29,524 nt of DNA from a virus, in IMG/VR virus record IMGVR_UViG_3300005589_000082, positions 1 through 29,524 of that record; one strand, given 5' to 3'. Below the pieces are notes generated by a model. The model worked only from the letters and a program-made list of their open reading frames with translations, was not told the DNA's origin and made no database searches. Below are positions 1,790 to 14,871 of this stretch, in pieces (within the stretch, counting starts at the first letter, position 1; every line of letters begins with the position of its first letter). The position numbers and the translations under genes are program-made.

Positions 1790-2041
1790 ATGGCAGAGTT
1801 CCAAGAAATTTTCAATGGTGCGTTGTTCAAGAACCAATATAAAGACAACGACGCTAAGCCTGATTACACAGGCAGGGCTACGGATTCGGACACAGGCGAA
1901 GAGTTACAAGCCGCCGCATGGATTCGTGAAGCACGCGGCACAGGCAAGAAGTACCTCTACTTCAACATTACCCGCAAGCTGGAAGACGGTTCGACCCAGC
2001 CTGTAGCACAAGGCGATATTGATGATGACATCCCGTTCTGA
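1790..2041 (+). CDS. Small protein with SSB-type C-terminal tail
   Basis: The product is 83 residues with a compact core containing GALFKNQYKDNDAKPDYTG (residues about 10-28) and GTGKKYLYFNITRKL (about 50-64). It ends in an acidic tail, GDIDDDIPF. The last six residues, DDDIPF, are the same as the terminal peptide of Escherichia coli SSB, which is the docking site for exonuclease I, PriA, RecQ, Pol III chi and other repair and replication proteins. The core looks like small phage proteins of the DUF736 type and may be a reduced OB-like fold; this is inference. It has a strong site (AAGGAG, seven bases before ATG) and overlaps the polymerase start by one base, so the two are translationally coupled. 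A minimal SSB or an SSB-partner decoy are both possible. Confidence 0.85.
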   Translation: MAEFQEIFNGALFKNQYKDNDAKPDYTGRATDSDTGEELQAAAWIREARGTGKKYLYFNITRKLEDGSTQPVAQGDIDDDIPF

Positions 2042-3897
2042 TGTTAGGCCAATATGACAGAATCGGACTTGACACAGAGACAACAGGGCTTCAATATCCA
2101 AGAGATAAAGCCTTTTGTGTCGGAATTGCGACCCCTGATGGGCGGAATATCTCATTTGATTTCCGGTCAGAAGGAACTGCTAGATTTCAGGATCTTATCA
2201 AGCACTATAGCGGAAGGATCATATGCCACAACGCGAGTTTCGATTATCGAATGTTGTTGTCTGCAGGGGTTCAAATTCCTATTCAAAATCTCGACTGCAC
2301 TGCGGTCAGAGCAACCCTCATCAATGAACACGAGTCAACGATCTTTCCATGGACTCGTAAAGTCGGGAACTATCAGCTCGATACATTATGTCAAAGATAT
2401 ATTGGTCATAAGAAAGTCGACGAAATCTATACCCAACTCGCTGAAATCTTCGGCGGACTCCCGACCCGTAACGTCCAAATCACCAACCTTCAACGCGCCC
2501 CTTGGGAAGTTGTCTTGCCCTACCTCGATGGAGACGCCACTTTGGCTCTTAAACTCTGGGAATGGCAAGAAGACGAAATCGAACGGCAAGACATCAGGAA
2601 GATTGTCGATTTTGAACGGCGGCTCATGCCAATCATCATCAAGACGGAAGTCGCCGGAATTAGAGTTAATCTTGACAGAGCGGAGCAAGCCAAAGAACCT
2701 CTGACCCATTTACTGGGGCAAAAACAGGCGGAATTAAATAAAATAGCGGGGAGAGATTTCAATGTCAATTCACCTAAGCAAGTCAGGGAGCTATTCAACC
2801 CAACGCATCGGGACGAAACTTGGTGGGTGGGGGACTACCCAATTGGGACTACGGCGAAAGGGGCTCCTTCCTTCGGCGGGGATTACCTTAAAGAAATGCC
2901 AGACCCCCGTGCTGAACTTATTGGCGATATCCGCTCCCTACTCAAAACACGCGACACCTTCCTGCAGCGCCACATTATTGAGCATTCCCATGGAGACCGT
3001 GTATATCCAAACATCAACCAAACGAAAGGCGAGGATGGTGGCACGGGAACAGGACGTTTATCTTACACAGATCCTGCCCTTCAGCAAATCCCCTCCCGAA
3101 ACAAGGCAGTGGCGGCGATCGTTAAGCCCTGTTTTCTACCCGACGAAGGGCATGTATGGGCGGACAGTGACCTCGCTTCTTTTGAGGTTAGGATTTTCGC
3201 GCACTTGGTCGCGGCGTTTGATGGTAGGATTGCGGAGCGCTACGCCAACCAACCTGACCTTGACTTCCACCAGATGGTCGCGGACATGACCGGACTTGTG
3301 CGCAATGCGACGTACAATGGTCAACCTAATGCCAAGCAGCTCAACCTGAGTATGATCTTCTGTCAAGGTAACGGAGCAACCGCTGCCAAAATGGGCATGC
3401 CTTGGGAATGGGATCAGTTTAAGTCCGGCGAAATCGACGAAAATGGTGATCCCGTTATGATTCGCTACCAGAAGGCTGGGCGCGAAGCAATGGATGTAAT
3501 TAACCGCTATCACCGTGAATTGCCTGGGGTTAAGAAATTAGCTGAAAAGTGCAAGGAAATTGTAGGTGAACACAGCTATATCAAGACCGAATATGGTCGT
3601 AAGCTGCGATTCCCGAAGCAGTACAAAGACTATAAATCGTCTGGGTTGGTGATCCAATCAACCAGCGCGGACATAAATAAAGAGAACTGGATGTTGGTCG
3701 ACGATGCATTGGATCAAGGTCGTCTACTACTTAACACACATGACAGTTACGGGCTTTCGCTGCCTGAGGACACTTGGGAGCGTGAGTATAAAAATGTGAA
3801 GGAAGCAATAGAGAGAGATAATTTCAGAGTTCCCATCTTGCTCGACTTTAACGGGGTCGGTGCAAATTGGTGGGAAGCTTTATCAGGAGATACGTAA
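2041..3897 (+). CDS. dpoZ: Family A DNA polymerase with 3'-5' exonuclease, DpoZ-like
   Basis: The product is 618 residues. The exonuclease domain comes first: DTE (D11, E13), HNASFD (N64, D68) and YLDGD (Y161, D165), all DEDD-type metal ligands present, so proofreading should work. The polymerase domain has TGRLSYTDPALQQIP (337-351), motif A DLASFEVR (D377, E382, R384), motif B KQLNLSMIF (K432, N435) and motif C THDSYG (H567, D568). Three positions differ from E. coli Pol I: the F762 site is Leu436, the Y766 site is Phe440, and the motif C HDE Glu is Ser569. The domain order and length fit the DpoZ polymerases reported to accompany PurZ in Z-genome phages. That this enzyme prefers dZTP over dATP is inferred from the neighbours. 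It overlaps the gene before and the gene after by one base each. Confidence 0.93.
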   Translation: MLGQYDRIGLDTETTGLQYPRDKAFCVGIATPDGRNISFDFRSEGTARFQDLIKHYSGRIICHNASFDYRMLLSAGVQIPIQNLDCTAVRATLINEHESTIFPWTRKVGNYQLDTLCQRYIGHKKVDEIYTQLAEIFGGLPTRNVQITNLQRAPWEVVLPYLDGDATLALKLWEWQEDEIERQDIRKIVDFERRLMPIIIKTEVAGIRVNLDRAEQAKEPLTHLLGQKQAELNKIAGRDFNVNSPKQVRELFNPTHRDETWWVGDYPIGTTAKGAPSFGGDYLKEMPDPRAELIGDIRSLLKTRDTFLQRHIIEHSHGDRVYPNINQTKGEDGGTGTGRLSYTDPALQQIPSRNKAVAAIVKPCFLPDEGHVWADSDLASFEVRIFAHLVAAFDGRIAERYANQPDLDFHQMVADMTGLVRNATYNGQPNAKQLNLSMIFCQGNGATAAKMGMPWEWDQFKSGEIDENGDPVMIRYQKAGREAMDVINRYHRELPGVKKLAEKCKEIVGEHSYIKTEYGRKLRFPKQYKDYKSSGLVIQSTSADINKENWMLVDDALDQGRLLLNTHDSYGLSLPEDTWEREYKNVKEAIERDNFRVPILLDFNGVGANWWEALSGDT

Positions 3898-6134
3898 TGC
3901 AAATGGACATGAAAGCCCTGAACCAAATAGGGCAGGTGGCTGATTACAATGATCGGCTATTCAGTGCGGCGATCTACTATGCTAAATGTGGCATACCAAT
4001 CGTCCCAATCAGAAAGAATGGCAAAGCCTTACCGCCCACCAGTAGGGGCATAACATATGCCAATGCTACCACTGATATTGAAGTAGTTAAGTCTTGGTGG
4101 GGAACCAATGGAAAGTTCCGTGGCTACAACATAGGCATAGCCTGTGGCGGTAAGGATGGCGTGTTTGCCCTCGATATCGACACCAAAGACGACGGGATCG
4201 AAAACTTCCGTCAATTGGTCGACCAGTTCGGGGAGCTGGTAGCCCCCATCCAGAAAACGCCATCAGGGGGTATGCACTTTCTTTTCCGGTGGGTCGAGGA
4301 GGCTGTCTCATCCACATCGAAGATAGCAGCAGGGATAGACACTCGCGGGAGCAGAGAACCACGTCCGAGTAGCCACATCGTCGCTTTCCCGTCACAGGTA
4401 GAGGGCGGTTCGTATGTCTGGGTAGGGGCTGGCGAAATCGACGAGCCCCCCGATTGGATCCTTAAACCTATTAAACCTTGGAATCGCGGAAGTGAGAATG
4501 TTGGGGATGAAGATGTTGAGAACCAATACACACTCGAACAGCTTGATGAAGTAATTGCACACATCCCGCCTGATAAACTGGACTACACCCAGTGGCTTCA
4601 TATTGGGATGGCTATTAAGACACAACACCCCGCCGCCGATGGTTTGGCTCTGTGGGATAAATGGTCTAAAGATGGTAAGCGCTACGTGGAAGGCGAGTGC
4701 AATGAGCGGTGGAAGGGATTTGACCCAATGGGGACAATCCGGATGGGGACGCTATTCCATTACGCTAAAGATTTTGGATATAACCCAAGTGAACATGCCG
4801 ATCTTGGTGAATTTGCTGACGTTATAAAGAAGTACAATGGTATGTGCGCAATGACAGTAGTAGGCAATAAGCCTCGCGTTGCGATGCGTGATTTATCCAC
4901 TAAAGGGATCAATTTGTTCAGTAAGGAAGACTTCTTCACTTGGATGGGCAATGACGTCGTATTCGTAGCCGATGCCAAAGGTGATGCTAAACCCTGTCTC
5001 GCTGCTAAAGTCTGGATGGGCAGTGAGCATCGGAATGTGGCACGGCGCGGAATTGGATTCTTCCCCGACAGACCCTTCATCTACAAAGACTACGTTAATC
5101 TGTGGCGCGGATGGGAAATCGAGGAGGAACAGGGTGATTGGTCATTATATGACGCTCACGTTAAAGACATAATATGCGATGGCGACGAGGAACTTTATAC
5201 CTTTGTTCTTGATTGGCTAGCCCATATGGTTCAGAAACCAGAGGAATTGCCTGGCAGTTGCATCGTGATGTCCGGCATTGAAGGCTGCGGTAAGGGCACA
5301 TTCGTAGATTTTATGGGTCGGGCGTTAGGTCAGCACTATTCACACATCGTGAACTCATCACATCTTTTGAGCAACTTCAACTCGCACCTTATGGATAAGA
5401 TGTTCATATTCGCGGATGAAGTAACTTATGGGGGCGATCGTAAGGTCGCAGGTCTACTTAAAGGTATCGTAACAGAAAAGGAACTTACGTGTGAAAAGAA
5501 AGGATACGAAGCATTCAGCTACGAAAACAGAGCCCGACTTGTGGTTGCGAGTAACGAAGATTGGTTTATTCCAGCAGGAGCGGAATCCCGTCGATGGCTT
5601 GTTCTTCGGGTTTCAGGAAAGAGAGCGAACGACAGAGAGTATTTTAATAGACTTTACCATCAAATGGAAGAAGGTGGTATTGCTGCGATGCTCTATGATT
5701 TGCGAAGAAGAACAATTACATCAAATCTCCGACTAGCACCGGAGACTGAAGCTCTTATGATCCAACGGGAGCTGTATATTGGAGCTGGGGATATCATCAC
5801 CCAATGGTGGGCTCAAACCATAGACAAGGGTAGAGTTGAATGTGCCTATTCAGGTGAGCCCGTGACCGAAGAGATAGCACAGCAGACCGACACGTGGTAT
5901 ACTATATGTGACCGCCCCGCCCTATATGAGGAATTCACTCAATGGGCGTTAGGTCGTGGGTATAAGGGAGGACAAATCAAATCAGCAGCATTTTTCTACC
6001 GCAAGATGCGGAATTTTGGGTTGAAAGACAAACGAACCTCCATTGGTTCAAAACGGGGCTATGTATTCCACATACCGGAGTACGAAGACGCATTGAGAAT
6101 ACTTAAATCTATAACAGGAGAGAACATTGAGTAA
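3897..6134 (+). CDS. Primase-polymerase / superfamily 3 helicase
   Basis: The product is 745 residues from ATG 3897. This start is chosen over an in-frame ATG at 3867 because AGGAGA lies at the right distance and the ATG overlaps the polymerase TAA. Residues about 20-190 form an archaeo-eukaryotic primase domain, with catalytic LDID (D93, D95) and SGGMHF (H127). Residues about 210-290 resemble a PriCT-type linker, with WLHIGMAIK. Then comes an SF3/D5-like ATPase: Walker A GIEGCGKGT (460-468, K466), Walker B MFIFADEV (D507, E508), sensor ASNED (N553) and arginines SRRW (565-566). It should prime and unwind at the fork. In phage S-2L a PrimPol is a replicative enzyme for Z-DNA; here it stands beside a full DNA polymerase, so it may act mainly as primase-helicase. 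Its last eight bases overlap purZ. Confidence 0.92.
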   Translation: MQMDMKALNQIGQVADYNDRLFSAAIYYAKCGIPIVPIRKNGKALPPTSRGITYANATTDIEVVKSWWGTNGKFRGYNIGIACGGKDGVFALDIDTKDDGIENFRQLVDQFGELVAPIQKTPSGGMHFLFRWVEEAVSSTSKIAAGIDTRGSREPRPSSHIVAFPSQVEGGSYVWVGAGEIDEPPDWILKPIKPWNRGSENVGDEDVENQYTLEQLDEVIAHIPPDKLDYTQWLHIGMAIKTQHPAADGLALWDKWSKDGKRYVEGECNERWKGFDPMGTIRMGTLFHYAKDFGYNPSEHADLGEFADVIKKYNGMCAMTVVGNKPRVAMRDLSTKGINLFSKEDFFTWMGNDVVFVADAKGDAKPCLAAKVWMGSEHRNVARRGIGFFPDRPFIYKDYVNLWRGWEIEEEQGDWSLYDAHVKDIICDGDEELYTFVLDWLAHMVQKPEELPGSCIVMSGIEGCGKGTFVDFMGRALGQHYSHIVNSSHLLSNFNSHLMDKMFIFADEVTYGGDRKVAGLLKGIVTEKELTCEKKGYEAFSYENRARLVVASNEDWFIPAGAESRRWLVLRVSGKRANDREYFNRLYHQMEEGGIAAMLYDLRRRTITSNLRLAPETEALMIQRELYIGAGDIITQWWAQTIDKGRVECAYSGEPVTEEIAQQTDTWYTICDRPALYEEFTQWALGRGYKGGQIKSAAFFYRKMRNFGLKDKRTSIGSKRGYVFHIPEYEDALRILKSITGENIE
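5895..5904 (+). promoter_or_regulatory. Possible internal promoter upstream of purZ
   Basis: GTGGTATACT here is identical to the extended -10 of the promoters at 172-181 and (minus strand) 29180-29189. It lies inside the PrimPol-helicase gene, about 220 bases before purZ. The -35 is poor: TAGCAC at 5875-5880, with an 18-base spacer, matches only weakly. Extended -10 promoters can work without a good -35. If active it would lift purZ, mazZ and datZ above the polymerase genes. It could also be a chance codon pattern. Confidence 0.4.
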
Positions 6135-7161
6135 AGCAGACGTAATCATCGACCTTCAGTACGGGTCGACGGGTAAGGGGCTATTGGCTGGTTATTTGGC
6201 TCACGAACGCCAATATGACATCGCAGTAAGTGCCAATATGCCGAATGCGGGTCACACCTACATAACAAAGGAAGGCATCAAATTCATCAACAAGGTGCTA
6301 CCATCGGCGGCTACAAGCCCCAAAGTGAAAAAGGTGTTCATTGGACCAAATGCCGTGTTCAGCAAAGAACAACTGTTCAAGGAAATCCGCGATCTTGAGG
6401 ACGCCGGTATCAAAATTCGTAACCGGCTTGTGATCCACCCTAATGCGGTAGTTTTAAGCGAAGAACACATCAAATCTGAAGCCTCACTTAGCGGGATTGC
6501 CAGCACCATGCAGGGGTCAGCCGCTGCTACTGTTGATAAGATGATGCGCACAGCCGGTTCTATGCCGGTGGCTGCCAGCAATAAGGATTTGCACCCTTAT
6601 TTGATTTATCAGGAAGATTGGCTTGAGGAAATGTACAGAGCCAATAAAATCCTCGTTGAAGGCAGTCAGGGTTACAGCTTAGGCATCAATACCCAGTTTT
6701 ACCCATACACCACTTCACGTAGTTGTACCCCCGCCGCGTTCATGGATTACTGTGGTGTCCCTATCCGGTTTCTCGCCAATGTGTATGGCGTAGCCCGTAC
6801 ATTCCCGATCCGTGTCGGCAATACCGAGAACGGAACAAGTGGACCAGTTTATGGTGACCAACATGAACTCGAATGGGATGAACTTGAGCAGGAAGCTGAA
6901 ACCACCACAGTCACCGGTCGTATTCGTCGCGTGTTCACGTTCTCAAATGAACAAATCCTCGATGCTATGCGTGAATGCCAGCCCAACGCTATATTCCTTA
7001 ACTTCGCCAACTACATGACCCGCGAGGAACTGAAGGAATTGATCGGTACTCTTATCGCTCTCGGTCAGCAGCTCGATTTGTCAAGTCAGATTGTGCGCTG
7101 GACAGGGCATGGACCAACTCATAATGACGTGAAGAAGGTGAAAAATGGCAAATTATCATAG
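6127..7161 (+). CDS. purZ: N6-succino-2-amino-2'-deoxyadenylate synthase (PurZ)
   Basis: The product is 344 residues, a shortened relative of adenylosuccinate synthetase (E. coli PurA has 432). PurZ joins dGMP to L-aspartate with nucleotide hydrolysis, giving the succino intermediate that host PurB converts to dZMP. The decisive mark is QYGSTGKG (11-18): the PurA catalytic Asp13 (QWGDEGKG) is Ser14 here, as in characterised PurZ enzymes. Other PurA-family features remain: NAGHT with H43, EGSQG (178-182), YPYTTSR (192-198), the Asp-loop-like VTGRIRR (262-268) and GPTHNDV (329-335) near the end. The start is TTG 6127, preceded by AGGAG and overlapping the PrimPol end by eight bases. Its 3' end overlaps mazZ by 17 bases. 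PurA itself is unlikely given the Ser and the company of MazZ- and DatZ-like genes. Confidence 0.95.
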   Translation: MSKADVIIDLQYGSTGKGLLAGYLAHERQYDIAVSANMPNAGHTYITKEGIKFINKVLPSAATSPKVKKVFIGPNAVFSKEQLFKEIRDLEDAGIKIRNRLVIHPNAVVLSEEHIKSEASLSGIASTMQGSAAATVDKMMRTAGSMPVAASNKDLHPYLIYQEDWLEEMYRANKILVEGSQGYSLGINTQFYPYTTSRSCTPAAFMDYCGVPIRFLANVYGVARTFPIRVGNTENGTSGPVYGDQHELEWDELEQEAETTTVTGRIRRVFTFSNEQILDAMRECQPNAIFLNFANYMTREELKELIGTLIALGQQLDLSSQIVRWTGHGPTHNDVKKVKNGKLS

Positions 7162-7456
7162 CTTTAAGGTAGCGACAAAGGACATCGTTGATTGGGCTGA
7201 CAAGGTAATCGGCGCTGACCGGAAACTTGAGCAAACCTTGTGGAAGCTAGTAATGGAAGAAATTCCGGAACTCGCTCAAGAGTACAATAAAACCGGCGAA
7301 CTTGATAAGGGTGAAGTCGGCGACGTCCTCATATTGGTTCTTGATCTCTGCCATTTGGCTGGTATCGACGCGTCTGAAGCCATAGCCGAAAAGATGGAAG
7401 TCAACAAGCAACGGACTTGGAAAGCTGGACATTCAGGGATCATGAGCCATGAATAG
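7145..7456 (+). CDS. mazZ: MazG-like (d)NTP pyrophosphohydrolase, MazZ-like
   Basis: The product is 103 residues, the size of a single MazG-type domain. The four-helix metal site is visible: EEIPE (E38, E39, E42) and EVGD (E57, D60), followed by the helix ASEAIAEKMEVNKQRTW (residues 76-92). In Z-genome phages MazZ converts dGTP (and dATP) to the monophosphate and pyrophosphate, supplying dGMP for PurZ. The assignment to that role follows from the motif plus position between purZ and datZ; the sequence alone shows only the MazG fold. The ATG lies inside the end of purZ with AGAAGGTG upstream, so translation is coupled to PurZ. Its stop is about 26 bases before datZ. Confidence 0.88.
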   Translation: MANYHSFKVATKDIVDWADKVIGADRKLEQTLWKLVMEEIPELAQEYNKTGELDKGEVGDVLILVLDLCHLAGIDASEAIAEKMEVNKQRTWKAGHSGIMSHE

Positions 7457-7481
7457 ACGAAATCAAGGTTGAGGAAAGAAA

Positions 7482-7982
7482 TTGAAAATTCATGATATCT
7501 TAAGAGCCGGAGACGTTAAGCGGTGGCATATTGTTCGAACCATAAAAGAACAGTCACTGGCTGAACATTCGTTTAATGTGTGTATGATTGCACGCGCTAT
7601 AGCCAAGGAGGCTTGTATTGATGACAAAGAAATTACCAAAGCTGCGCTTGCTCATGATCTTGATGAAGTTCTGTTGGGTGATGTTCCAACATCTGTCAAA
7701 GACAAAGCCAGAGAACAAGGTTTTGACATTAACAGCCTATATGAGCGAGTTACCGGACGTGTATTGGCGACCAACGAAGTCCAAATACTTCGAATTGCGG
7801 ATCGCCTTGAAGCATTCTGGTGGATTACATTTAATGCAATGGGAGAGCATGCTGATTTGGTGCGAAGAGACTGCGCCCACCGATACGAACAAGGAATCGC
7901 AGACCCTGAGCTGAACCCAAACATAATGTTAGCATCACGCAAAGTAGAGGAGTTAATTTTTCATGCAAAACATACGCTGTGA
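7482..7982 (+). CDS. datZ: HD-domain dATP triphosphohydrolase, DatZ-like
   Basis: The product is 166 residues with a complete HD-domain metal site: H29 (AEHS), H58-D59 (LAHDLDE) and D107 (IADRLE). Conserved RW (R14, W15) near the start matches the YfbR-like 5'-deoxynucleotidase branch to which DatZ belongs. DatZ strips dATP to deoxyadenosine, so that adenine is kept out of phage DNA. YfbR-type nucleotidase activity on dNMPs is the main alternative; the purZ-mazZ context favours DatZ. The start is TTG 7482, supported by GAGGAAAG about five bases upstream; no better ATG exists in frame near it. The 3' end overlaps the nuclease gene by 20 bases. Confidence 0.88.
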   Translation: MKIHDILRAGDVKRWHIVRTIKEQSLAEHSFNVCMIARAIAKEACIDDKEITKAALAHDLDEVLLGDVPTSVKDKAREQGFDINSLYERVTGRVLATNEVQILRIADRLEAFWWITFNAMGEHADLVRRDCAHRYEQGIADPELNPNIMLASRKVEELIFHAKHTL

Positions 7983-8382
7983 AGACGATCTACGTAAACT
8001 GATCTTAGGCAAACTAAGCAATAGCCGGTGGCACTGGCAGCCTGTTGAGAACATTGAAGTCGGAGCCGGTACACCTGATCTTAATGGTTGTTACGTGTAT
8101 GGCATAGAAGTTTGGCTGGAACTAAAAGTCGAACCAAAGCTGCGAAAGAGCCAATATATCTGGATGAAGAAAGCCGCACGCGTAGGGCGCAATGTCTGGG
8201 TGGCTTGGTGGGATAACGGTAACATCTACCTCATCAAAGGTGAAGATGCCGTTAAATACCGACTGCATGAGACCGGAATCCGAGACCTCTGGGAGGATGC
8301 CACGCATTACGTGTTCTGTGGTATCGATTGGAACAATTTTGCTAAGGAGATCCTTTATGGACAAAGCAGTGCGCAAGAATGA
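7963..8382 (+). CDS. VRR-NUC-type (PD-(D/E)XK) nuclease
   Basis: The product is 139 residues. The core shows the PD-(D/E)XK arrangement as used in VRR-NUC domains: GTPD (D39), WLELK (E53, K55) and a downstream Gln in LRKSQYIWM (Q64), then VWVAWW and IYLIKG strands. All catalytic positions are present. VRR-NUC nucleases are structure-specific or DNA-degrading enzymes; many phages encode a stand-alone copy near replication genes. Here it lies directly after datZ, with overlapping frames, so it is made with the Z-nucleotide enzymes. Roles could include branch resolution before packaging or degradation of host DNA, which would feed dGMP to PurZ. The second idea is inference. The start has AGAGGAG upstream at about ten bases. 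Confidence 0.8.
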   Translation: MQNIRCEDDLRKLILGKLSNSRWHWQPVENIEVGAGTPDLNGCYVYGIEVWLELKVEPKLRKSQYIWMKKAARVGRNVWVAWWDNGNIYLIKGEDAVKYRLHETGIRDLWEDATHYVFCGIDWNNFAKEILYGQSSAQE

Positions 8383-8668
8383 AGGTAAGCCCAAATTAAC
8401 ACTAGTGCTCAGCGCACCTGATGCAATAATCGCCATCACTAAGGTTATGCAATTCGGGTTGGAAAAGTATGCCCGCGATAACTGGAAAAAGGGGTTTGAG
8501 AAGAATGAGGGAATTGACTCTGTTCTGCGCCATTTACTGGCTCACCAGAATGGTGTACTTATTGACGAAGAGTCAGGACTCCCCCATCTTCATTTGGCTT
8601 TAACGGGGCTTATGATGTATGTGGACAACGAAGCCCGTGGAACTAACTACCTTTCCGATAGCCTTTAA
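8357..8668 (+). CDS. dATP/dGTP diphosphohydrolase-like protein (DUF5664 type)
   Basis: The product is 103 residues from ATG 8357, chosen because AAGGAG lies seven bases upstream; a longer open frame to 8192 lies inside the nuclease gene and lacks a site. The protein starts with EGKPKLTLVL, then MQFGLEKYARDNWKKG (residues about 31-46), then LRHLLAH and a Glu-rich loop ending SGLPHLHLALTGLMMY (73-88). This is the pattern of the phage family annotated as dATP/dGTP diphosphohydrolase N-terminal domain, related to MazG-type all-alpha pyrophosphohydrolases. It is the second such candidate in the cassette after mazZ. It ends the plus-strand operon, and its last 26 bases overlap the holin gene on the opposite strand. 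Confidence 0.75.
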   Translation: MDKAVRKNEGKPKLTLVLSAPDAIIAITKVMQFGLEKYARDNWKKGFEKNEGIDSVLRHLLAHQNGVLIDEESGLPHLHLALTGLMMYVDNEARGTNYLSDSL

Positions 8669-9693: not shown

Positions 9694-12600
9694 TTAAAGA
9701 TTAGCCGGCGGCAAGGACTTCTCATCTTTGTTCTCCTGTTCCAACTCATCTGCGAAACTAGCGCCGGTTGACGGAGGTATTACCGGCTTACTGAACTGAA
9801 TGATATTGCCCTTAGACTTATTGTACTCGTCTATTGCCTTAATTTGCTCCGATGTTCCTTTGTACAGGGCTCTTACGATCTCCTTAATTTCATTTTTATT
9901 GTATTCGTTTTTAATCTTAACGGTCACAGTACCGCCATTGGCACCAAATGTGCCGCCGTTGTTCTGCACGCCGCGCAGCCACTTGAGGAATTTCTTCTGT
10001 CCCCGAACCCGACCATTGGTCAGAATCTCAGCCATATCAGCCGATGCTGCACTATTTGGTCCAACGGCAATCATACCGGCTTGTGCAGCCAATATCATTG
10101 CTTCATCCCGTGCTTCAGGTGATGAATCGATGGAAACAAGTTCATTGAACCTTTTATCGTACGCCTTCTGGTAACGACGCTCGTACTTACCGCCTTCCTC
10201 GGTATACTTGTCCATCAGAAGTTTGCGCTCAGCACCAACAAATTCCTGATATTTGCTGTGGACGAAACCGAATTCATCCATGGCACGAAGGTTAAGGCTG
10301 ATTGGACCACCTGAAGGCGATTCCGGAGCCCAATCAATGCTTATCGTTTGTCCAGGTTCAGTTATGTCAGCCTGTGCCATCCACAATGCCACTGCACTAC
10401 GATCGGTATTGGTCGAGAAAGCTCTAATTGGAACCAATCCGCGCCAAACCATACCGCCTACGCCACGACCAGCGTAAGTATTTACTTCACCGTCCCAAAG
10501 GATTCGAGGCGGGAGTTTGTTCGATAATCCAGGCATTGCATTCATCCACTGTGCACGGGTCTTATCGAACAGCTGCTGGAACGGATTATCACCTTTGTTG
10601 GGGGACATAGACCGCACAACATTATCAGAGGCTGAACGCAAATCGCGATAGCCGTTGATTACCAGCATGCTATTGAGTACGCCAGATAAGAGATTCACAG
10701 CTTTCGCGTCCGATTGGCTCTGGATTGCTGAAATATGAGTCATATATGTGTTCATGAACGACCGATCCATAATCATATCGGCAGTATGGAACACAGAAGC
10801 CATAAGCAACGCGCTGCGATCGTCGTTGTCTTTCATGGTCTCCAACGTCTCAAACGTCGTAGCATGCATATTGATGATTAATGCAGCGGGGTCAAGGCGA
10901 TCCAATTGAAACGACCAGTTCATGAATTCCTCGCCGTCCTCAGCATTTCGTTCACGGAATTGAGGGCTACCGCCAAGGTAGAAGCTATTGTTGTAAATGC
11001 CCATAGCTTCACGTGAACGGTTAACACGATAGTTGGTAGAACCTTCACCAGTAATGTAGCCAGCTTCGTAAAGTTCCAATGCAGCATACATCAGACCAGC
11101 CGCAATAGGCAGTCGACTTACAAATTCAGCACGGGCGATAGGGTCATTGTGGATCTGCCGCAATCTGCCACCAGCCATGTTCATTGGTCCAAATGCTGAA
11201 TGCTGAAGGGCATAACCCAACAGATTAGCGGGGGTGTTAACGAACGGAACCAATAACTGACCAACAGGGTGACTGTGTTGCGCGGCGCTCATGCTTTTAG
11301 CGTACATGTTGACCAGACCACCATATGCCACTTTAGTATCAGCGGTGAAGGTAGCCTTAGCAGCGTGTTCATTTGCGGCACGCACCATATCAGGCGTCGG
11401 ATTGGCAAGCCAATAATTCATACGCTCCTGATAAGTCATATCGGGGCGCAAAGTACCGGTTTCATTCTGATCCATCGCTTTCGCATGGCGTTTAGCGTCG
11501 CGGTACAAGGAACGACGGAAATGGAAAGCCTTGAATGTGGTATCCATCATTTCAAGTGCGCGAACCGGAAGCCAATCGGGGTCTTCACCATTGTAGCGCA
11601 TCCGGATTCTGTCCTCCGGCATACCAAAGTTCCGATATTCCGCACCAATCTTACCGCTAACGTCAATCACATTAGCGCCGTCCAATCCCTCTTTGCGCCA
11701 CATCTTAGGGATGATGCGCAAGATGTCATGGAATGCAGCAGTATTGGATTGAACCCATTCATTAGGACTTAGCAGCCAAATGCGATCCATTTCATCCATC
11801 AGTTGTGGATTCATGACGCCATTAGTCAGCGCATCTTCAGCGCTGGTGGGGGCAATTAATTTGGGGAACTTCTTGGCGAACATGTACTCCATTTGGTTGA
11901 AACCAACCGCCATGGGGTACTTAACGCCTTCAATCATAGCAGCTGCGCCGGAGCCAATCATGTTGGCGGCGTGTGTACGGATTGAAGAGAGCATCCAATT
12001 GTAACGAGCCCGAACAATGGTGTCCCACAATCCGGCACGGCGCATACGGGCATAGTAAGCCAGTTCTGCCGGATTCTTACCGCTAGCCACAGCCTCAATA
12101 TTGCCAGTGAGCGATTTAATGCCGCCATTATACCGAATAAGTTTGCGGGTCATTTGGGCAGTTGCAGTTGGACCCATTCTGTAAGCATTATTTAGACCTA
12201 GCCCCCATTGGAACATGTTTTGCAGCGGGGTGCGTGCACCTTTCAACATCGCCTCGGTAGCGTCAAGTCGCATTTTCTCAAGGGAAAATTCAGCGATGAG
12301 AAGTGGGGTATTGCGCCATTCCCTTGTGGCTTCGATTTGACGAGCCAATGAAGACAAACGGGACAGTTGTTCCTGCCAGATAGCACCTAATGTCTCCCAT
12401 TCTTCACGTTGCCACTTCTGGCTTATCTGCAGTCCGCTCTTATGCATGAACTTGCGACGAGCCATGTGATCCTCTGGTCCAATATCAGGTTGGAATTGGC
12501 GAGTGCGGAAACGTTCCCACAATGATCGCAAGTTAGCTGACATTGGGTGGTTGAAGAAGTCAATGATCGGTACGCCTGTTTTTTCAGACTGAATCAAGTC

Positions 12601-14871
12601 TTCTTCAGTGATGCGCTCAAATTTGCGGGTCTGAGCCGGTGAAGGATCAGCATGGGGGTCTACATCGTTATGGCGAGTAGTCTTGGCTACTGCTTCACGT
12701 GTTGTAGGTTCAGGAGTGTCTTGTTTAGGTTTAGTACCTTCCTGCTCAGTTTTGGTGGTCTTGCCAGTGGTCTTAGCACTCTTGCCTTTTCCGGTTTTAG
12801 TGATGCCACGCTCTCTGAGGAGTTTCTCATATTCCCTCTCAATAAGATCAATTACACGATCGGGGTTGTCCGCATACATATCGTCAATGCGGTCTGCGTA
12901 CTTAGCCTCAACAAGCTCCCGCGCTTCATCCATAAGGGCTGAAGATTCATCAGCATCAAGAACCCGATTAGTTTTCGTTTCAACAACAGTAGGCGGATTG
13001 GGCTCATCTACAGTGTTGATAACATCAGCCGGTGATGGCTCAGGTTCAGCCTCATCGAACGGGGTCTTTTGTGTCCCCGCTGTTGGTTCATCGATGGCAT
13101 CATCCGCAAGGCGGAGTGCTTTAGCGCGAACGTTGTGTTCAACGCCATCAGCATCTACGACCTTAATCCAACCTCCACCTTTGGACTTGACTGTGAAAGT
13201 GCCATCAGTACCCTCCACAACAACACGCGCACCAACGGCAGTAGGTTCAGTTGGGGGCTTAACATCCTCCCATTTGGACAGTTTAGCCTTCCGTACGTTT
13301 CGACGATTGCCCTCACCGTCAACTAACCTGACCCAGCCGTGGTCATAGCCTTCAACGGTGTGTTTCTTGCCGTTATAATCAACCACATTACCTTTGGTCT
13401 CGATGGGGGAGTTAGCATCAAGCGTTGATTTACGGGCTATCTCATCTGTATTGGATGCCCTTACAGCCTTAAATTCCTTAACGAGTTTAGGTACTTGCCG
13501 TGCGTAGAAGGGAGAACCAATCAAAACACTGCCAGCAGCGAAACCCGCAGTCATTCCCATAGCACTAAGGGTAACATCCACAGAGCTGAACTCTTCACCT
13601 AAGCCCATTTCACGCAATTTCTCATCAGTATATGCCTGAGCAGTGGAAATGCCCGCACCTTCGATGGCACCAGCTACAGCCATTGGTGCTGCGCTGCTGC
13701 GAATATAATACTGCAACATACTTTTAGCACCGTCACGCATCAAACGCTGTAGCGTGCCCCTGCCTGCTACAGCAGCAAGTAATGCAGCAGGATCCCATAT
13801 TGTATTTTTAACTGCCCACGCAAAATCATCCCAATTGGTGATTGTTTTGCCGCGTATCTCCATAGCTTTAAGCGCAGCACGGGCATATTCAGGGGTCTTT
13901 TCATCGAGACCCATAGCAAAACCGGCGGCAAGAAGTGTGTTCCATGAAATACCGCTAAGTTCCTTACGCAAAAGGGTACTCAACTCTTCATCTGTTCCTT
14001 CGAAATGAGGGAACATGGTACGGGCAGACTGCATCCACTCTTCATGATCGGTTAAGTCTTCAACTTTGACCATATCGGTGTGTGAAGGCAACGCTTCATG
14101 TGAAACGCCTCCACCATATGAAGTCGTAACCATGCCCGACTTCTGATCTACGCCGCTGTAAAGAGAAAAAATTTCATCGAGCCAATTAGACTCTTTGGGC
14201 TTGTCGTCGTCGAACTTTGTGGCGGGAGTCTCAGGTATTTCGGGAAGGGGAGGCATTACTTCGCTATCAACATTATTGTTTTTAATGAATTCCTCTTCTT
14301 CAGCTTCTTGAGCGGCAGCAGCTTCCACTTTGGCGGCTATTTCATCATTCCAAAGTTCAACTGTTTCCTCTTCGCGCCCCTCAACCTTAGCATTTTTAAG
14401 TGCGTTATCGATATCTTCATCGGATGCACCTTGAGAACGGAGGGACTCACTTACATATTCCACTTCATCCTCAGTAATAGCCTCACCCGTTGCGAGACGG
14501 TACAGAGCGCCAGTTGAGGGGGTGGTTTGGGCGGGGTCTCCCGTGTCCTCCTCCGTCCCGACGTCGGGACTATCGGCAGTAGCGGGGGCATCCTCTGTGT
14601 CGACAGCGACGGCGGCGGCAGGAGACGTGTCCTCGCCGACAGACGCATCCGCCACGCCCCCCGTGGTCTGTTCTTCGGGCGGCGGGGTCAGTAGCTCAGG
14701 GTCAGACACCATTTCAATGATGCCAACATCTTCCGCAACATTATTGCCTGGACCTACGCCACCAGCGTCGTAAAATTCATTTATCGCTTCAGGCTGAGTA
14801 GCCGCATTCTTAGCTTTCTCATCCGCAGCGCGACTATCTTCATTTTTTAAAGCTTCGTCCCAAAGTCCCAT
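9694..14871 (-). CDS. Large internal virion / DNA-ejection protein
   Basis: The product is 1725 residues, by far the largest. The N-terminal 220 residues are acidic and low-complexity (Ala, Glu, Asp, Thr, Pro). A Gly/Ala-rich hydrophobic stretch (about 438-452, TAGFAAGSVLIGSPF) could be membrane-active. Two related SH3/KOW-like repeats follow, one ending HGWVRLVDGEGNRRNVR (about 509-525), the other with GGGWIKVVDADGVEHNVR (about 562-579). A Lys/Thr-rich linker (about 690-740) leads to a long helical C-terminal part containing LLVPFVNTPANLLGYAL (about 1203-1219), a phrase common in giant phage virion proteins. I see no transglycosylase motif. By order (tail tubular A, then a small Gly-rich, a mid-size, and a giant protein) it matches T7 gp16, which forms the ejection conduit. 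ATG has GGAG at eight bases and overlaps the previous stop. Confidence 0.8.
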   Translation of the reverse strand: MGLWDEALKNEDSRAADEKAKNAATQPEAINEFYDAGGVGPGNNVAEDVGIIEMVSDPELLTPPPEEQTTGGVADASVGEDTSPAAAVAVDTEDAPATADSPDVGTEEDTGDPAQTTPSTGALYRLATGEAITEDEVEYVSESLRSQGASDEDIDNALKNAKVEGREEETVELWNDEIAAKVEAAAAQEAEEEEFIKNNNVDSEVMPPLPEIPETPATKFDDDKPKESNWLDEIFSLYSGVDQKSGMVTTSYGGGVSHEALPSHTDMVKVEDLTDHEEWMQSARTMFPHFEGTDEELSTLLRKELSGISWNTLLAAGFAMGLDEKTPEYARAALKAMEIRGKTITNWDDFAWAVKNTIWDPAALLAAVAGRGTLQRLMRDGAKSMLQYYIRSSAAPMAVAGAIEGAGISTAQAYTDEKLREMGLGEEFSSVDVTLSAMGMTAGFAAGSVLIGSPFYARQVPKLVKEFKAVRASNTDEIARKSTLDANSPIETKGNVVDYNGKKHTVEGYDHGWVRLVDGEGNRRNVRKAKLSKWEDVKPPTEPTAVGARVVVEGTDGTFTVKSKGGGWIKVVDADGVEHNVRAKALRLADDAIDEPTAGTQKTPFDEAEPEPSPADVINTVDEPNPPTVVETKTNRVLDADESSALMDEARELVEAKYADRIDDMYADNPDRVIDLIEREYEKLLRERGITKTGKGKSAKTTGKTTKTEQEGTKPKQDTPEPTTREAVAKTTRHNDVDPHADPSPAQTRKFERITEEDLIQSEKTGVPIIDFFNHPMSANLRSLWERFRTRQFQPDIGPEDHMARRKFMHKSGLQISQKWQREEWETLGAIWQEQLSRLSSLARQIEATREWRNTPLLIAEFSLEKMRLDATEAMLKGARTPLQNMFQWGLGLNNAYRMGPTATAQMTRKLIRYNGGIKSLTGNIEAVASGKNPAELAYYARMRRAGLWDTIVRARYNWMLSSIRTHAANMIGSGAAAMIEGVKYPMAVGFNQMEYMFAKKFPKLIAPTSAEDALTNGVMNPQLMDEMDRIWLLSPNEWVQSNTAAFHDILRIIPKMWRKEGLDGANVIDVSGKIGAEYRNFGMPEDRIRMRYNGEDPDWLPVRALEMMDTTFKAFHFRRSLYRDAKRHAKAMDQNETGTLRPDMTYQERMNYWLANPTPDMVRAANEHAAKATFTADTKVAYGGLVNMYAKSMSAAQHSHPVGQLLVPFVNTPANLLGYALQHSAFGPMNMAGGRLRQIHNDPIARAEFVSRLPIAAGLMYAALELYEAGYITGEGSTNYRVNRSREAMGIYNNSFYLGGSPQFRERNAEDGEEFMNWSFQLDRLDPAALIINMHATTFETLETMKDNDDRSALLMASVFHTADMIMDRSFMNTYMTHISAIQSQSDAKAVNLLSGVLNSMLVINGYRDLRSASDNVVRSMSPNKGDNPFQQLFDKTRAQWMNAMPGLSNKLPPRILWDGEVNTYAGRGVGGMVWRGLVPIRAFSTNTDRSAVALWMAQADITEPGQTISIDWAPESPSGGPISLNLRAMDEFGFVHSKYQEFVGAERKLLMDKYTEEGGKYERRYQKAYDKRFNELVSIDSSPEARDEAMILAAQAGMIAVGPNSAASADMAEILTNGRVRGQKKFLKWLRGVQNNGGTFGANGGTVTVKIKNEYNKNEIKEIVRALYKGTSEQIKAIDEYNKSKGNIIQFSKPVIPPSTGASFADELEQENKDEKSLPPANL

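Follow-up and report, generated by a model that had tools for sequence, protein, structure and literature searches.

The window analysed here is the entire virus record IMGVR_UViG_3300005589_000082 (29,524 bases), which has no direct terminal repeat and is a 29.5 kb fragment of an uncultivated virus genome. Its left part is a replication module on the plus strand; genes for the portal (head-tail adaptor), the major capsid protein, and the tail lie in the right part, on the minus strand. The source is an uncultivated short-tailed phage. At 2041-7982, genes for DpoZ, PrimPol, PurZ, MazZ, and DatZ form a single tight operon. The five reading frames (2041-3897, 3897-6134, 6127-7161, 7145-7456, and 7482-7982) are open, intact, co-directional, and tightly packed, and most of them are preceded by Shine-Dalgarno-like sequences. 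The first-pass annotation had placed these five genes in this interval, and all five were confirmed. It had also called the cassette complete; the five genes are present, but the operon continues to a nuclease gene (7963-8382) and a DUF5664 gene (8357-8668). All four Z enzymes (DpoZ, PurZ, MazZ, and DatZ) were recognized by family-specific sequence tests, and their published diagnostic residues are retained with few exceptions, mostly conservative. What the DNA itself shows is which genes are present, that they are intact, how they are ordered in the operon, to which families they belong, and which diagnostic residues they keep.

The dpoZ gene (2041-3897, plus strand) encodes a family A DNA polymerase with a 3'-5' exonuclease domain, predicted to be Z-selective. 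The protein scores 810.5 bits with NCBIfam NF038380 (DpoZ_1; cut-off 500, E=8.8e-244), and its best solved-structure match is DpoZ of phage phiVC8 (7pbk, E=3.8e-216). In the alignment, Phe440, Leu436, Gly535, Ser569, and Arg421 correspond to Phe459, Leu455, Gly548, Ser583, and Arg440 of the phiVC8 enzyme, and the clade insertions 1-3 of the phiVC8-like group are present at all three sites. Phe459, Leu455, Gly548, and insertions 1-3 are the features described for phiVC8-like DpoZ (PMC8599892). The family A polymerase noted earlier upstream of purZ thus carries the phiVC8-type signature, and by analogy a preference for dZTP is predicted. It should be mentioned that the polymerase of Ochrobactrum phage vB_OspP_OH, which has both PurZ and DatZ, lacks the Phe459/Gly548 signature: it (L008:3957-5783) has Tyr and Ser at these sites and is 26% identical to the window DpoZ.

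The genes flanking dpoZ also belong to replication. A small reading frame directly 5' of it (1790-2041, plus strand) resembles single-strand DNA-binding proteins (PHROG SSB families, 8.1e-6 and 3.3e-5); in phages K300, VP2, and Bm1, an SSB gene adjoins or precedes dpoZ. The next gene (3897-6134, plus strand) encodes a PrimPol with Prim-Pol, PriCT-2, and DUF5906 domains (Pfam PF09250, 3e-23; PF08707, 1.6e-20; PF19263, 1.5e-21), and it is 40-53% identical to the PrimPol at the same operon position in ZP6, phiVC8, and the IMG/VR contig IMGVR_UViG_3300031539_000263 (L022). The presence of this gene had been reported correctly, but its start had been set at TTG 3867. The start is most likely ATG 3897, which overlaps the DpoZ stop codon by one base and has AGGAG upstream.

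The purZ gene (6127-7161, plus strand), for 2-aminodeoxyadenylosuccinate synthase, needs a TTG start; a Shine-Dalgarno-like sequence is present. The protein scores 311.1 bits with NCBIfam NF038379 (cut-off 300, E=6.7e-93). Its best solved structures are those of phiVC8 PurZ (6fko/6fm1, E=1.1e-85), and it matches the PHROG of 2-aminooxy adenylosuccinate synthetase (3.6e-80). Ser14 aligns with the catalytic Asp of E. coli PurA (Asp13; 14 counting Met), in agreement with the earlier reading of this site. The TTVT loop, Arg141, Arg229, Arg267, Gln181, Val230, Asn292, Phe293, Asn295, and Gly329-Pro330 are conserved. The residues of the dGMP/dATP pocket, taken from PMC8342488, are kept except for Ala125 and Thr195, where characterized PurZ proteins usually have Gly/Ser and Cys/Val. 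These two residues, together with a score only 11 bits above the cut-off, count against the Z reading.

The superfamilies of PurZ, MazZ, and DatZ include members with ordinary metabolic roles, so that the locus might be read as belonging to a phage with ordinary A, in which a PurA making adenylosuccinate from IMP works beside housekeeping hydrolases of the MazG and HD kinds. Such a reading is extremely unlikely. The catalytic Asp of PurA is replaced by Ser14, the three best PurA models of NCBIfam give the protein only 108-134 bits (cut-offs 368-402), its identity to E. coli PurA is only 24%, and one operon holds four Z-type proteins together. The first-pass annotation had proposed PurZ phylogeny as a check, and the tree agrees with the PurZ assignment. 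It contains 29 proteins, with PurZ0 represented by Wayne and Ghobes, and PurA by the distant E. coli protein only. The window PurZ pairs with that of L022 (52% identity) inside a group with phiVC8, ZP6, BUCT555, K300, and Bm1. The support on the PurZ side was 94/95, slightly below the strict level; the PurZ0 pair forms a separate branch (96/97), and E. coli PurA lies far off.

The mazZ gene (7145-7456, plus strand) encodes a predicted (d)GTP diphosphohydrolase of the MazZ-1 (S-2L-like) type. Its match to the MazG-family domain (1.1e-4) is slightly above the cut-off, and its best solved-structure match is MazZ of cyanophage S-2L (7ody, 9.7e-11). In MazZ-1, Glu35, Glu38, Glu50, and Asp53 are the metal ligands, and Ile56, Asp60, and Arg83 are further reference residues (PMC8342488). 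All four strictly conserved ligands are present in the window protein, as Glu39, Glu42, Glu57, and Asp60; the guanine contacts Ile63 and Asp67 and the transition-state Arg90 are also kept. In the residue alignment, the SH-Ab sequence fell short of the domain and that of PMBT28 spanned only part of it; neither was used. The protein resembles the S-2L-type MazZ-1, not the MazZ-2 of phiVC8 or ZP6.

The datZ gene (7482-7982, plus strand), for a predicted dATP triphosphohydrolase, also needs a TTG start and has a Shine-Dalgarno-like sequence. The best solved-structure match is S-2L DatZ (6zpa, 2.4e-10); the protein also matches PHROG 7076 (dATP triphosphohydrolase, 2.5e-30) and a YfbR-like family (2.7e-15). 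The MazG-type and HD-type hydrolases of the earlier reading have S-2L MazZ and S-2L DatZ as their best solved-structure matches. In the reference DatZ, the metal ligands are His34, His66, Asp67, Glu70, and Asp119, accompanied by Arg19 and Lys81, and Trp20 and Ile22 exclude ribose and 2-amino purines (PMC8065100). In the window, the ligands are all kept (His29, His58, Asp59, Glu62, and Asp107), as are Arg14 and Lys73, and the dATP-selective positions are Arg14, Trp15, and Ile17. Two substitutions count against the Z reading. The phosphate-contacting Lys116 is Arg in both the window (Arg104) and L022; this change is conservative and keeps the positive charge, and therefore does not by itself make DatZ membership doubtful. 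Pro79 is replaced by Ser71, at a position that is also variable in phiVC8, OH, and Bm1.

Variation at some base-contact positions of DatZ and PurZ might point to a partial or relic Z system, in which the enzymes work with A only partly replaced, or in which one gene has decayed. This is very unlikely: other Z phages vary too at most of these positions, the frames are all open with intact catalytic residues and normal-looking overlaps and ribosome-binding sites, and a polymerase of the DpoZ type is present. The locus is best explained as a PurZ/phiVC8-type cassette for a 2-aminoadenine genome, and, in support of the first-pass interpretation, the virion DNA is predicted, from the sequence and with a probability of roughly 0.93, to carry Z in place of A. 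This is a prediction because the data are the DNA sequence of a metagenomic contig alone.

Two further genes follow datZ. The first (7963-8382, plus strand) encodes a VRR-NUC-like nuclease, a conserved neighbor of datZ, matching PHROG 2165 (2.1e-9) and PHROG 93 (endonuclease, 5.5e-4); profile matches mark the corresponding position in ZP6, phiVC8, BUCT555, K300, and IMG/VR loci. The VRR-NUC reading comes from the HHpred annotation of ZP6 (4QBN, PMC8515928), not from a domain match here. The second (8357-8668, plus strand) encodes a stand-alone DUF5664 protein of 103 residues, of the dATP/dGTP diphosphohydrolase type (PF18909, 3.1e-22, 78.8 bits, Pfam cut-off 27; PHROG 801, 1.6e-25). DUF5664 of phage Wayne hydrolyzes dATP, dUTP, and dGTP to the monophosphates (PMC12884076). 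The window protein is homologous to the N-terminal domain of a fusion protein of Acinetobacter phage SH-Ab 15497.

The slot after the VRR-NUC-like gene is occupied by DUF5664 in the window, L022, L024, and L031, and by a DUF6378-like gene in phiVC8, ZP6, BUCT555, K300, and others; the window slot was compared with L002:9210-9482, L003:9467-9763, L004:9242-9604, and L005:9208-9543. Of the DUF6378-like genes in ZP6, phiVC8, BUCT555, and K300, only those of ZP6 and K300 exceeded the Pfam cut-off. A search of the record for DUF6378 gave no match, but the control in the same search gave none either, and the negative therefore carries no information. Homology between DUF5664 and DUF6378 was considered and found unsupported (hhalign probability 0.3%). 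It is possible that DUF6378 takes part in the Z pathway of these operons.

A route to Z DNA can be proposed, in which the enzyme activities, the DNA chemistry, and the roles of DUF5664 and of host enzymes are assigned by analogy with characterized relatives. MazZ, and probably DUF5664 too, would cut dGTP to dGMP, which PurZ is predicted to join with aspartate to give 2-aminodeoxyadenylosuccinate. Host PurB would release dZMP, and host kinases would then make dZTP. DatZ would destroy dATP, possibly assisted by DUF5664. The genome would be primed by PrimPol and copied by DpoZ, with dZTP favored over dATP, yielding virion DNA with Z instead of A. A search of the record, itself a fragment, for PurB-type lyase and guanylate kinase families gave no match, which would be expected if both come from the host. 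In the PurZ0-type Gordonia phage Ghobes (L034:12090-13223), the annotation includes a phage-encoded adenylosuccinate lyase; no gene for this step was found in the window.

The window carries the full known Z-genome gene set and is a divergent member of a known system, not a new system. The order dpoZ-primPol-purZ-mazZ-datZ-nuclease is shared with Alteromonas phage ZP6 (Mareflavirus; PMC8515928), Vibrio phage phiVC8 (Enhodamvirus), BUCT555, and several IMG/VR contigs, and K300 also has a syntenic operon. Phages with characterized enzymes or DNA thus have this arrangement. ZP6 and phiVC8 are 51-53% identical to the window in DpoZ and 45-47% in PurZ, without DNA-level similarity (megablast); they carry MazZ-2 and, after the nuclease, a DUF6378 gene, whereas the window carries MazZ-1 and DUF5664. 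L022 has the same order as the window, including the stand-alone MazZ-1 and DUF5664 genes (DpoZ 69%, DatZ 65%, DUF5664 59%, and PurZ 52% identity), but is a different virus, likewise uncultivated. SH-Ab 15497 and Salmonella phage PMBT28 share DUF5664, MazZ-1 (DUF550), PurZ, DatZ, and DpoZ with the window; unlike in the window, DUF5664 and MazZ are fused into one protein, and PurZ is 40% identical. No PrimPol match was found in these two phages within the stretch examined. In S-2L, PurZ (35% identical), MazZ-1, and DatZ are ordered as in the window; this phage lacks DpoZ and depends on PrimPol (PMC8065100). The cassette thus combines a replication module of the phiVC8 kind with a MazZ-1 of the S-2L type, and within this phiVC8-type operon the predicted activities of DUF5664 and MazZ-1 reside in distinct genes.

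By megablast, the window had no nucleotide-level match in the phage collection, and the best PurZ match in that collection was 47% identical; the window therefore represents a divergent lineage. PurZ/DpoZ phages are extended to this uncultivated lineage, which supplies distant DpoZ, PurZ, MazZ-1, and DatZ proteins for enzyme work. A search of genome contigs with PurZ found no relative, and therefore gave no prophage or host clue.

Restriction sites were counted over the window (1-29524). GGCC occurs twice (2047 and 19831) against about 100 expected; when the codons of 22 kb of genes were shuffled synonymously, it occurred 74 times on average and never fewer than 59 times. GC-only palindromic hexamers are also depleted (1 observed, 21 expected), whereas palindromic hexamers containing A/T (351 against 376) and most A-containing tetramers are close to expectation. 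The scarcity of GGCC suggests past pressure by a GGCC-cutting host system, for which Z would be no shield at a site without A. The pattern is indirect evidence in favor of the Z reading. It is consistent with selection on sites lacking A but is not proof: GC-only hexamers are rare also in several non-Z phages, the comparison covered only five non-Z genomes, and several Z phages avoid GATC, a site with A. In L022, GGCC is only mildly low (30 observed, 49 expected). The near-loss of GGCC beside tolerated A-containing sites is a sequence-level hint on Z and restriction pressure. Tentatively, the source might be a phiVC8-type Z phage with enlarged pool control, in which separate MazZ-1 and DUF5664 proteins would act as two independent purine dNTP diphosphohydrolases in addition to DatZ, and from which nearly all GGCC was lost since Z cannot shield GC-only sites. 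The idea that Z phages in general tolerate A-containing sites was rejected in that form. GATC is strongly avoided in phiVC8 (L035; 4 observed, 152 expected), VP2 (L046; 5, 160), PMBT28 (L039; 2, 205), and ZP6 (L036; 32, 138), and Z therefore leaves some selection on A-containing sites.

Two other regions of the window should be mentioned. A C-rich stretch of about 330 bases (640-970) has no convincing gene and contains a diverged 18-base direct repeat, CAACGGGTCACTAAATTC; its phiVC8 counterpart is only about 50 bases long. This stretch is possibly a regulatory or origin region. Downstream of the operon, the reading frame at 9694-14871 codes for 1,725 residues; its product matched no PHROG and, judged by its position, is probably a large internal virion protein.
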